A stretch of DNA of 32,163 nt from a virus. The DNA is taken from IMG/VR virus record IMGVR_UViG_3300010883_000232, positions 1-32,163 of that record. One strand, given 5' to 3'. Under the pieces are notes generated by a model. It had not been told where the DNA came from. It did no database searches and saw only the letters and a list, made by a program, of their open reading frames with translations. This document shows positions 27,572 through 30,664 of the stretch, one piece after another. How positions within the stretch are numbered: the first letter of the stretch is position 1; each line of letters opens with the position of its first letter. The position numbers and the translations under genes were made by a program.

Positions 27572-28048
27572 TCAATTCGCCACATCCTCTGATGTAATGG
27601 CGTCGAGGCAAGCGTCGGGGATCGGCTTCGCAACGCCGACAGCCACGGGCTCCTCCTCATCCCACCCGATCACCATTGGACCGGTGTGATGCACCTCCTG
27701 CTTATCCTTGTAGCGGGTATCCAGCTTTGACAGCTTCGCCAGGGCTTGGTGCCCCATGTTATTCGCGGCAGTGACCACGGCCTGGGCTCTCTTCACATCG
27801 CCCTTGAGAGTGTTGTTGATCACACTGCGCTGGGCATCGACTGCCTCGGCGGCATGGACCATGATGCCGCGCTTTTCAGCGGCGAAACATTCATCATCCA
27901 GCTTCTTGTCCTTGATGCGCCACTTCTGGAGCGCCCTGATCGTCGGCATATGGGCATCAAGGCATACAGCCGTGATTGTTTCACCCACACTAAAGCGTTC
28001 GAGGATTTCCTCGATCATCTTATCGGTACGGATTGAAGGCGGTGGCAT
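27572..28048 (-). CDS. Terminase small subunit
   Basis: 158 residues with GAGG six bases before the ATG at 28048. The N-terminal 45 residues (a KMIEEILERFSVGETITAVC stretch, then TIRALQKWRIKD) form the helix-turn-helix of the small terminase family that reads substeps of the packaging site. A central helical oligomerisation region follows (KGDVKRAQAVVTAANNMGHQ, then LAKLSKLDTRYKDKQEVHHT), and an acidic C-terminus that could contact the large subunit. It is separated from the large terminase by about 1.0 kb, which includes two other genes and a non-coding interval. An intrinsic terminator lies immediately upstream. Confidence 0.82.
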   Translation of the reverse strand: MPPPSIRTDKMIEEILERFSVGETITAVCLDAHMPTIRALQKWRIKDKKLDDECFAAEKRGIMVHAAEAVDAQRSVINNTLKGDVKRAQAVVTAANNMGHQALAKLSKLDTRYKDKQEVHHTGPMVIGWDEEEPVAVGVAKPIPDACLDAITSEDVAN

Positions 28049-28056
28049 GTATACCT

Positions 28057-28089
28057 CAATAAAAACAGGGACCGCGTTAACGGCCCCTG
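28057..28089 (-). terminator. Intrinsic terminator between DUF6456-like gene and small terminase
   Basis: CAGGGGCCG pairs with CGGTCCCTG (one G-U pair) around the loop TTAACG, followed on the minus strand by TTTTTATT. It ends only nine bases before the small terminase start, and its T-tract overlaps that gene's leader. It separates the replication-side transcript from the packaging and structural genes. A competing hairpin upstream is described in the findings. Confidence 0.82.
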
Positions 28090-28114
28090 AGTCAGGGAGA
28101 TCGGAGGAAGTACC

Positions 28115-28128
28115 GGCACAACTGTGCC
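28115..28128. repeat. Short inverted repeat, operator-like
   Basis: GGCACA and TGTGCC are separated by two bases. The element lies in the 147-base gap between the DUF6456-like gene and the small terminase, upstream of the terminator. It could be a dimeric protein site or a small RNA hairpin; there is no independent support. Confidence 0.3.
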
Positions 28129-28195
28129 AATAGCGAATTACCTACCATCGATATGATGTCGCAACAAGACGAACAAGAACAGAACATCAACATAA

Positions 28196-28711
28196 TCACA
28201 CCACCTTGTAGAACCCGACAAGGCCATCCAGCGCGAGGCGCAACGCCACCATGCCATCCTGTTCAGGCCGTTTGGACATCTTCACGCCTTTCCAGCTACC
28301 GGCAGTGAAACCCTCACCGACCACATGCTCGATAATATCCGACAGAGGTGCGCCTACATACACCAGGGCAGCCCGAACACGCTGCTTCGACAACTGGATA
28401 GCCTCGGCTGCTTCCATCGGCATCTCTCCACCGGATGGCGCATTATTATATCTGACCTGGGCATACGTTGCGGCGAGGTTCGCCCTCCGGTACTGCCCGG
28501 CAAAGATATCCGCCGCTATGTACTGCGTGTCGGATATCGACCCGCGACTACGGTAAGTCTCGATAGGATCGATGGCGGTATTCCGCAGCGCCTTAACACC
28601 AGCGATTGGTGTTTCGATCTCGACATACGATCCATGCTGCTGCTGTTCAGCCGGACCATAATCCGACCTCGTAGTTTCCTTCGGCTCCCCCTTCTTATTC
28701 TTCTTACTCAT
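28196..28711 (-). CDS. DUF6456-like protein (probable DNA-related, unknown)
   Basis: 171 residues from ATG at 28711 with AGGTGG just upstream; a GTG two codons earlier is less likely. After a basic, disordered start (MSKKNKKGEPKETTR) comes a domain with the pattern of DUF6456: RNTAIDPIETYRSRGSIS, Q-x-x-AAD-x-F-x-x-x-YRRA, SKQRVRAALVYVG and a C-terminal LRLALDGLVGFY. I know this domain mainly from alphaproteobacterial proteins of unknown function, so it is a clue to the host. It is linked through a TAATG overlap to the repeat-rich segment and the helicase. Confidence 0.65.
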   Translation of the reverse strand: MSKKNKKGEPKETTRSDYGPAEQQQHGSYVEIETPIAGVKALRNTAIDPIETYRSRGSISDTQYIAADIFAGQYRRANLAATYAQVRYNNAPSGGEMPMEAAEAIQLSKQRVRAALVYVGAPLSDIIEHVVGEGFTAGSWKGVKMSKRPEQDGMVALRLALDGLVGFYKVV

Positions 28712-28827
28712 TACCACCTGTCCTGTCTCGTTTTACGTCCCATCAAGACTGGCGAGACAGCAGGACCGTCTATAGACGGTCCCTGTCTTGTCTCGCCATA
28801 TGGGCAATTGCGCGAGACATGTCCCAT
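28711..28827 (-). CDS. Possible 38-aa mini-gene in the repeat segment
   Basis: ATG at 28827 shares a base with the TGA of the 12-codon frame before it, and its TAA shares a base with the ATG of the DUF6456-like gene (TAATG). The peptide starts MGHVSRNCPYGETRQ and ends MGRKTRQDRW; it reads through the CTGTCTCG repeats and the palindrome, which contribute its TRQ repeats. The ribosome binding site is weak. It may be translated only to carry ribosomes across the segment, or may be chance. Confidence 0.33.
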   Translation of the reverse strand: MGHVSRNCPYGETRQGPSIDGPAVSPVLMGRKTRQDRW

Positions 28828-28861
28828 CAACTGTCTCGCGCCTGTCTCGCACCTGTCTCGC
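28723..28861. repeat. Cluster of seven CTGTCTCG motifs (iteron-like)
   Basis: Copies on the plus strand are at 28723-28730, 28789-28796 (TGTCTCGC), 28831-28839, 28842-28850 and 28853-28861; reversed copies are at 28752-28760 and 28812-28819. The last three plus copies are spaced exactly 11 bases apart, one DNA turn. A ten-base repeat GTCCCATCAA also occurs twice (28737-28746 and 28821-28830). The cluster lies between the helicase-primase and the DUF6456-like gene. Iteron-like origin or multi-site protein binding is the main reading. Confidence 0.75.
28751..28797. repeat. 47-base inverted repeat with a perfect 20-bp palindrome
   Basis: The centre GGACCGTCTATAGACGGTCC (28763-28782) is a perfect palindrome. 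It is flanked by CAG on the left and CTG on the right, and outside these by GGCGAGACA (28751-28759) and TGTCTCGCC (28789-28797), which pair again. In RNA it would fold as a long hairpin with a UAUA loop and a small internal loop; no T-tract follows, so it is not an intrinsic terminator. It may be a cruciform, an RNase III site or a protein site. Confidence 0.8.
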
Positions 28862-28865
28862 TCAT
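28827..28865 (-). CDS. Possible 12-aa leader-like peptide after the helicase
   Basis: ATG at 28865 shares its A with the helicase TAA and is preceded by GGAGG at a good distance. Twelve codons (MSETGARQARDS) end in a TGA that overlaps the next ATG. The three tandem CTGTCTCG repeats form its coding sequence. The strong start signal suggests ribosomes do initiate here, though the peptide may have no function of its own. Confidence 0.3.
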   Translation of the reverse strand: MSETGARQARDS

Positions 28866-30664
28866 TATATCCTCCAAATACTTTCACTATTTCCAGCAAA
28901 TTTGCTGCCTTTGATGAGGTCGATCTTTGCTCTATCGACTACTTTTCTGGTTCCCGCCGACACCACATCTGCGCCATCGTCCTTTGGTGGCATGATCCCG
29001 TTCCTGACACACCACGTTCTGATGTCTGTCATTGAGATGGATGCGACATCGGCGCCGTTATGCCCTACAGGCCGTCTACTGACATTGATTGCCAGGTTGT
29101 CATATGCCTCTACGATGGCGTCTCTGAAGTTGGATCGATCATCGCCTCTCTTACTGGTTTCTTTCGTGACGCCTGATATATCCCAGCCGTCTTGCGTGAG
29201 GGCGCATTGGATGGGGGAGAACTCCTCGGCATTGAGGTGGGTGCGAAGCCTGTGTTTGGTGAAGTTGAGGACGAACCCTTCGCCGTTATCTTTCGGGCGG
29301 TCGAGGCGCAGGACGGTGTCCAGCTCCCATTCCCTTGTGTTGCTGCCGTATGATCTGCCTTCCGCGTGACCTGTATGGTGCACCCATATCTGTGCGATGT
29401 AACGATTTGTCAGGCTTTTCATCAATTTTTTGATGGGTTCCCAGCTTTCCTCTTCTTTCATATCGCCCGACAACAGGCACATTATGGAGTCGAAGATGAT
29501 GACGTTGGGCTGATACAGGTCGATCTGGCGTTCCAGCCATGCCTGGCCTTCATCGTTGTTCAGAGGCGGGATGTCCTCGCCATCGGCTTGTAGGCTGTCA
29601 CGGTTGAGCCCGAATACCTGTGCGCTCTCACCGTAGAGGTTGGCTACCTGTTGTGTTCGTTCCTTGAAGGTTTCCCGCGGCATTTCACCATCGATGTAGA
29701 GTACGCGGCACGGTCTGCCACCTTTCCAGTTCAGGAAATCTTTGCCGGCGGCTATGGCTGTCGCCATGTTGAGGGCGAAGAGCGTCTTCCCCAGCCCTGT
29801 TGGCGCATAGATCATCCACCTTGAGGTCGTACACATCACGGTGCCCATGAGGTAGTCTCTGGGCGGCATCTCTTTCTTCAGCCACGCTGCGAGGCTTTCC
29901 TTTGCTGGATCGTTTGGTCGTATCTGCGAAATCAATGTGCGTATATCGTTACGCTGTATCCACTGGACGATGTCATCCTTGTCGTTGAGGTTTTTGCATA
30001 TGTCGGCGGTGGTGATGGATGCCGCGATGCCTGTGAGTTTCTCGGCAACCGCCGCCATGTGTTTGCGTCCAGGATCATCGTTATCCGGTATCAGGATGAC
30101 GTGCTTGCCGGCGAAGTGTTCATTGAGTTCCTGTTGCCAGTTACCTGCGCCACCTGGGTTGCAGGTTGCGGGATAACCGGCGCGGTTGAGTGCCTCGACA
30201 CCCTGTTCACCCTCGACAACGATGATGCTTTCGTAGGTATGCCAGTGATGAAGTTGATACGGCAGACGGGTAACGCCATCCATGTTGTGGCTGTCGAGGC
30301 CGTGTTGGCGGAACGTCTTGCCACCGTCTGGGTCAGGCAACCGATCGACCACGAATGCCGGCGTTCCGTTCTGGTCCCTGTATATGTGTTGTCTGGGGTT
30401 AGGGTAGTCCGGGGGGAATGCGATATCGCCGCTATATTCACTGACCTTGTGTTGTTTGACGGCGCCGACGCGGAGCATGGCTTCATAAACAGCGTCTTGG
30501 CTACACCCTGCATGGCAATGCCACAGGACCATGTCATCCTCGCCGTCACTGATGGACAGGGACGGGGTGCGGTCCTTGTGTGCCGGGCAGCGCGCGGTGA
30601 AGGAGCCGTCGCTGTTAAGCCGGGCCTTTTCCAGGTGTGAGGCTATTTCTTTTGCTGTTGGCAT
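28865..30664 (-). CDS. Primase with TOPRIM and RecA-like helicase domain
   Basis: 599 residues, ATG at 30664. Zinc-binding domain: C26-P-A-H29 and the CHAGC motif (C50, C54), as in phage and plasmid primases. TOPRIM: VVEGEQG at about 148-154 and IPDNDDPGR at about 192-200, the acidic residues that hold metal ions for primer synthesis. ATPase: APTGLGKT near 284-292 (Walker A) and VIIFDS near 388-394 (Walker B), resembling the RepA/AAA_25 group rather than the DnaB or T7 gp4 hexamer. It would prime and unwind the phage origin. The C-terminal 100 residues are less conserved. Its stop is joined to the repeat segment, a plausible site of action. Confidence 0.9.
   Translation of the reverse strand: MPTAKEIASHLEKARLNSDGSFTARCPAHKDRTPSLSISDGEDDMVLWHCHAGCSQDAVYEAMLRVGAVKQHKVSEYSGDIAFPPDYPNPRQHIYRDQNGTPAFVVDRLPDPDGGKTFRQHGLDSHNMDGVTRLPYQLHHWHTYESIIVVEGEQGVEALNRAGYPATCNPGGAGNWQQELNEHFAGKHVILIPDNDDPGRKHMAAVAEKLTGIAASITTADICKNLNDKDDIVQWIQRNDIRTLISQIRPNDPAKESLAAWLKKEMPPRDYLMGTVMCTTSRWMIYAPTGLGKTLFALNMATAIAAGKDFLNWKGGRPCRVLYIDGEMPRETFKERTQQVANLYGESAQVFGLNRDSLQADGEDIPPLNNDEGQAWLERQIDLYQPNVIIFDSIMCLLSGDMKEEESWEPIKKLMKSLTNRYIAQIWVHHTGHAEGRSYGSNTREWELDTVLRLDRPKDNGEGFVLNFTKHRLRTHLNAEEFSPIQCALTQDGWDISGVTKETSKRGDDRSNFRDAIVEAYDNLAINVSRRPVGHNGADVASISMTDIRTWCVRNGIMPPKDDGADVVSAGTRKVVDRAKIDLIKGSKFAGNSESIWRI

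Follow-up and report, generated by a model that had tools for sequence, protein, structure and literature searches.

A repeat array behind a phage primase-helicase gene as a probable iteron replication origin, with the adjacent enzyme as its proposed reader

In the PICI/SaPI elements SaPIbov1 and EcCICFT073, the iteron origin lies directly 3' of the initiator gene and is bound by the C-terminal domain of the initiator (PMC7581432, which cites Ubeda et al. 2007; PMC6092414). In phage P4, a single polypeptide, the alpha protein, unites a Toprim-type primase, a helicase and a winged-helix domain that binds repeats at the origin (PMC4234260). A stem-loop located just 3' of the primase-helicase gene has been described for both pRN1 ORF904 and Bordetella phage BIP-1, where the structure is kept and the sequence is not, and the pRN1 stem-loop is experimentally required for pRN1 replication (PMC4234260). 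At the putative origin of SCCmec Cch2, repeats in direct and inverted orientation closely follow the helicase gene, and the direct ones are bound by the C-terminal domain of Cch2; replication in vivo was not shown in that study (PMC7581432). Finally, RSF1010 oriV combines iterons with primase stem-loops (PMC4234260).

The stretch of DNA analyzed here, referred to as the window, comprises 32163 bases and is a virus record of IMG/VR. A primase-helicase gene and a DUF6456 gene, both as the earlier sequence-only reading had named them, enclose a non-coding gap of 152 bp in it. The features of the gap and its neighbors are as follows.

28196..28711, minus strand: DUF6456 gene (27.7 bits, cut-off 26.3), a neighbor and not the partner of the array
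28713..28864, minus strand: non-coding array, proposed iteron replication origin, filling the gap from the helicase stop to the DUF6456 start
28724..28730, minus strand: last repeat copy, adjoining the DUF6456 start
28750..28798, no strand: long inverted repeat, with opposed units at 28753-28759 and 28789-28795 around the palindrome
28763..28782, no strand: perfect 20-bp palindrome GGACCGTCTATAGACGGTCC with the apex CTATAG
28813..28819, plus strand: inverted core copy, within a 10-bp inverted repeat (arms 28810-28819 / 28832-28841)
28832..28860, minus strand: the unit GCGAGACAG three times in direct orientation and 11-bp phase (cores 28832-28838, 28843-28849, 28854-28860)
28865..30664, minus strand: primase-helicase, proposed initiator, with a Zn-ribbon and Toprim (both under the Pfam cut-off) and a RepA-like AAA_25 helicase

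The core TGTCTCG is present seven times within 28724-28860, five times in one direction (28724, 28789, 28832, 28843 and 28854 on the + strand) and twice reversed (28753-28759 and 28813-28819 on the - strand). The sequence-only reading had reported seven copies of the full sequence in this five-plus-two arrangement; the count holds for the cores, and only five of the seven match the full CTGTCTCG, the deviating copies being those at 28789 (TTGTCTCG) and 28813 (ATGTCTCG). The exact 11-base phase of three copies and the perfect palindrome between opposed copies were both borne out, and the enclosing inverted repeat measures 49 bp with 10-bp arms (28750-28759 / 28789-28798). The palindrome is the longest perfect one in the window, the next being 14 bp. 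A repeat-pair scan over 180-bp stretches puts the array first among the repeat clusters of the window, with a score of 68 and the runner-up at 20, and 20 first-order Markov sequences of the same length gave maximum scores of 8-14, which agrees with the earlier description of the array as the densest non-coding structure in the window. Direct repeats of one short unit are clustered at a single locus, as in iteron origins, and a candidate initiator gene is adjacent, in that the helicase gene abuts the array and encodes a C-terminus predicted to be a winged helix.

Similar to PICI/SaPI, the proposed iterons of the window lie immediately 3' of a putative initiator-helicase gene, and an element-specific unit recognized by the C-terminal domain of the helicase is proposed here as well. 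In contrast, the Rep helicases of SaPI are DUF927 or D5/Primase_Cterm proteins and the primases of SaPIbov1 and SaPI5 belong to the AEP family, whereas the window enzyme combines an AAA_25/RepA-like helicase with a Toprim primase. Furthermore, two iteron sets flank an AT-rich region in PICI/SaPI, an arrangement not found in the window, whose array holds a long hairpin. Due to the Toprim and RepA-like enzyme and the lack of an AT-rich core between two iteron sets, the window array is not PICI-type by membership. While P4 resembles the window in its one-polypeptide enzyme, it has an SF3 helicase and its ori and crr are separate sites, both unlike the window. The position of the stem-loop is shared with pRN1, which differs in having an AEP primase, an SF3 helicase, no iterons and no specific binding shown for pRN1 (PMC4234260), and the position of the direct and inverted repeats is shared with SCCmec Cch2, which differs in having a D5-type helicase and a separate primase-polymerase (PMC7581432). 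The helicase domain of the window is a weak sequence relative of RSF1010 RepA (1g8y, E 0.012); in RSF1010, however, iteron binding (RepC), helicase and primase are distributed over the separate proteins RepA/RepB'/RepC (PMC4234260). The best reading is that the array would work as the origins of PICI/SaPI, P4-alpha and pRN1 do, the enzyme here being of the Toprim and RepA-like (SF4) kind.

The place and architecture of the array are kept in related genomes and its letters have changed in concert, so the conservation that the sequence-only reading had named as a check on the origin idea is found for layout. Four viral contigs encode helicases that are 95–97% identical to that of the window, and the array is retained in L003, L004 and L006, the three whose sequence extends into the gap. 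The same place is occupied in L007, L019, L020, L021/L022, L023 and L085. In L007 (55% identity) the layout is as in the window with the unit GCGGGACAG, and the palindrome GGACCGTCTATAGACGGTCC is replaced by GGACACCCTTTAGGGTGTCC, in which both arms are altered. L019 contains a mix of GAGACAG and TGTCCCG, and the units are AGTTGCACC in L020, AACACCGAA in L021/L022 and AACCACGCA in L023. Inspection by eye indicates a CTATAG-like apex (CTTTAG, CTTAAG) in the DUF6456-side hairpin of most close relatives. Between the window and L085, 70.6% of aligned bases are conserved in the array, 60.1% in the helicase gene and 55.1% in the spacer before the small terminase gene (TerS). When viral contigs were scanned for exact occurrences of the palindrome with its flanks, only four relatives were returned, all already known, and a DNA similarity search of phage records gave matches solely near the methyltransferase gene. 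A scan of bacterial genomes yielded mostly short N-terminal matches and one useful array (L029).

The association of the array with the helicase gene extends beyond these relatives. A strong repeat cluster lies at most 300 bp after the stop codon in 24 of 77 primase-helicase loci that are non-redundant at 60% identity, where 0.82 would be expected from the cluster density elsewhere (p about 7e-27); because the cluster cut-off was our own choice and the loci were found by sequence similarity, 24/77 is no estimate for nature as a whole. In the redundant set, arrays are found at 30 of 103 helicase ends versus 10 of 710 other ORF ends of the same loci (Fisher p 6e-21). Arrays follow the helicase gene in Microbacterium phage BirdInFrench (GTGTGACAG), Wolbachia phage WOVitA1 (AAGATGGCAAG), Idiomarinaceae phage 1N2-2 (GCGGTACA), Rhizobium phage RHph_Y3_1 (GTTCCCA), Salinibacter plasmid pSR14 (GGTGGTCCAGG) and a gammaproteobacterial contig (AATAGCAGG). 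The array is also the top repeat cluster genome-wide in RHph_Y3_1 (87, next 16), 1N2-2 (76, next 31) and pSR14 (79, next 28). The WOVitA1 array (L042, 4752-4960) is directly 3' of the RepA gene and is a candidate phage WO origin. Of the 77 loci, 45 lack a strong array both 5' and 3' of the helicase gene and eight have one on its 5' side, so the 3'-array rule is lineage-dependent. The 5' arrays are located 30-600 bp upstream of the helicase gene (L109, L122, L130, L156, L107, L038, L055 and L095), and the helicases of these lineages have a median length of 589.5 versus 650 aa; these lineages possibly use a separate iteron-binding protein, as in RSF1010.

These results bear on the possibility that the array is a multi-site operator, at which a regulator such as the DUF6456 protein would bind and control DUF6456 and the late genes. 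In the window and its closest relatives the array immediately precedes DUF6456, and GafA, whose homologues are annotated under the domain family of DUF6456, induces its own promoter and binds DNA with its C-terminal part, while an N-terminally truncated GafA still induces the gafA promoter (PMC9638019). However, the array does not accompany the DUF6456 gene. In L060, L065 and L072 a gene intervenes between the two, and the array still adjoins the stop codon of the helicase gene. No array precedes those DUF6456 genes for which no helicase was detected (L016, L070, L071, L073, L076 and L079), and L017, a further such locus, offers little upstream sequence to inspect. Conversely, arrays exist where DUF6456 is unannotated, as it is not named in the gene lists seen for BirdInFrench, WOVitA1, RHph_Y3_1, 1N2-2 and pSR14, nor was it seen in the gammaproteobacterial contig. 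No sigma-70-like promoter was found in 28000-29100, and the described GafA site is 75-125 bases upstream of TerS and not at the array (PMC9638019). Consequently, an operator is considered unlikely.

The DUF6456 protein is phage-encoded beside the small terminase gene, which is the next gene in the window, and relatives are found in P0003, L016, L017 and L059-L080. GafA, an activator of the gene transfer agent RcGTA, makes contact with the omega subunit of RNA polymerase (PMC9638019). Due to its phage encoding next to the small terminase, the DUF6456 protein may be a phage late-gene activator, which would bear on the source of GafA. A terminator-like hairpin followed by TTTTTATTGA is located at 28066-28089 on the minus strand, between the DUF6456 and terminase genes.

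The part of the helicase proposed to recognize the repeats is its C-terminal domain.

28868..29152, minus strand: C-terminal domain (residues 505-599), predicted winged helix, proposed to bind the iterons

The AlphaFold model of this domain alone has a pLDDT of 84, and the whole-protein model is of low confidence outside some parts. Both models contain, in order, a helix, a short strand, two helices and a two-stranded wing. In structure comparisons the domain aligns with winged-helix domains of other proteins, MCM4 and the origin recognition complex among them (Z up to 8.9). A Foldseek search with the domain returned no significant single family (best E 0.35), and for this reason the fold class alone is claimed. 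The window and L085 have the exact unit GCGAGACAG in common, and their C-termini are 50% identical (60% over the last 37 residues). In contrast, L020 has about equal identity to the window in the AAA domain (69%), but its C-terminus is 38% identical (last part 36%) and its unit AGTTGCACC is unrelated. L072 and L021 share CACCGAA and a similar C-terminus and differ in gene order. Across the 435 pairs compared, at least 30% of the repeated hexamers were shared only where the C-termini are similar. Judged from these sequence comparisons, the repeat unit tracks the predicted winged-helix C-terminus of the helicase, partly via phylogeny, because whole proteins diverge together by descent.

Strand composition has also been probed. 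GC skew is higher downstream than upstream of the array at 14 of the 20 loci with arrays (p 0.011), a modest effect, and no such rise is observed at 42 array-less helicase loci (p 0.86). The skew also rises at the array in the window and its close relatives, despite the genes around the array pointing one way in the window, L003 and L020. Cumulative GC skew, which the sequence-only reading had named as a means of locating the origin, gave a divided answer: the detrended minimum of the window, a partial genome, is near the array (29015), but RHph_Y3_1 and pSR14, both complete genomes, have their skew extremes away from their arrays. Consequently, skew is taken as supporting and not decisive, and the local shift alone is used as evidence. 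Base composition is also uneven beside the array.

28853..28952, no strand: AT-richer flank, candidate unwinding region (GC 0.40 versus a window mean of 0.55)

This flank is mostly the coding 3' end of the helicase gene and falls in the lowest 0.9% of the window, which is not extreme. GC within the window array is 0.46-0.58, the AT-richer part lies to one side, and AT-rich stretches are found near arrays in other lineages too.

Two further explanations were weighed. An RNA element, in which the helicase-DUF6456 transcript would fold into conserved hairpins that serve attenuation, processing or translation coupling, is very unlikely. The predicted fold is strong (-68.7 kcal/mol, z -6.5), with six pairs showing compensatory changes and a G-U wobble in L003, but the dyad symmetry of the DNA gives equal compensation, and direct phased copies are present besides the inverted ones, as duplex binding sites would have. 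Furthermore, an Rfam search of the region matched no family, the hairpin has no U-run after it on the coding strand, and such an element would leave unexplained why repeat units and helicase C-termini go together. A packaging start (pac or cos) recognized by the small terminase two genes downstream is highly improbable: the TerS start is 0.7 kb from the array in the window, but about 2.5 kb and several genes separate the two in RHph_Y3_1, arrays follow helicases in many other settings, and the unit goes with the helicase C-terminus. A transcription terminator was rejected, as the weak T-run after the palindrome is on the + strand alone, which carries no gene here. A hidden small gene was also rejected; a 38-codon frame (MGHVSRNCPY...) across the array is open in the window and L003, and a 2-base insertion in L004 shifts its 3' end (by eye). 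Separately, an ATG shares bases with the helicase stop (TAATG) and has GGAGG in front of it (28863-28876, minus strand), which opens a short frame through the first repeats; this is probably coincidence because GGAGGATA also encodes conserved residues of the helicase end.

The choice between a replication origin and a multi-site operator, which the sequence-only reading had left open, now falls much more clearly on the origin, given the conserved place and architecture, the position of the array behind the helicase, the tracking of the unit with the C-terminus and the skew shifts. The array is most probably the iteron replication origin of this phage, which its own adjacent primase-helicase would recognize. 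We infer the binding by the C-terminal domain, the origin function and the order of events, which would be as follows. First, the short repeats would be bound as iterons by the C-terminal winged helix of the primase-helicase, whose gene lies immediately upstream. Next, several helicase copies would gather on the repeats, the phased direct ones and the inverted ones alike, and the DNA would melt at the hairpin and the neighboring AT-richer stretch. Finally, the same polypeptide would both unwind and prime. With enzyme and site adjacent and evolving together, the repeat unit would therefore serve as a private code, which could turn over fully as the layout stays constant.

To our knowledge, the origins of most phages are unknown. 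The system in the window is probably a variant of the known iteron-origin type, and a widespread one; the findings suggest that 3' iteron placement, at least, is far more common than so far described. We tentatively propose, as something short of an even bet, that Toprim/RepA-type primase-helicases of tailed phages and plasmids form, together with a 3' iteron origin, a widespread and so far undescribed class of self-contained, co-evolving replicons, whose repeat codes would be read by the recognition helix of the winged helix and would turn over fully among relatives, a turnover possibly driven by the avoidance of cross-replication between co-infecting phages. A protein-DNA recognition code can be tested directly on the natural series of enzyme-unit pairs, and a rule that places the origin at the array following the primase-helicase stop codon would yield testable origin predictions for numerous phages and plasmids, Wolbachia phage WO among them.
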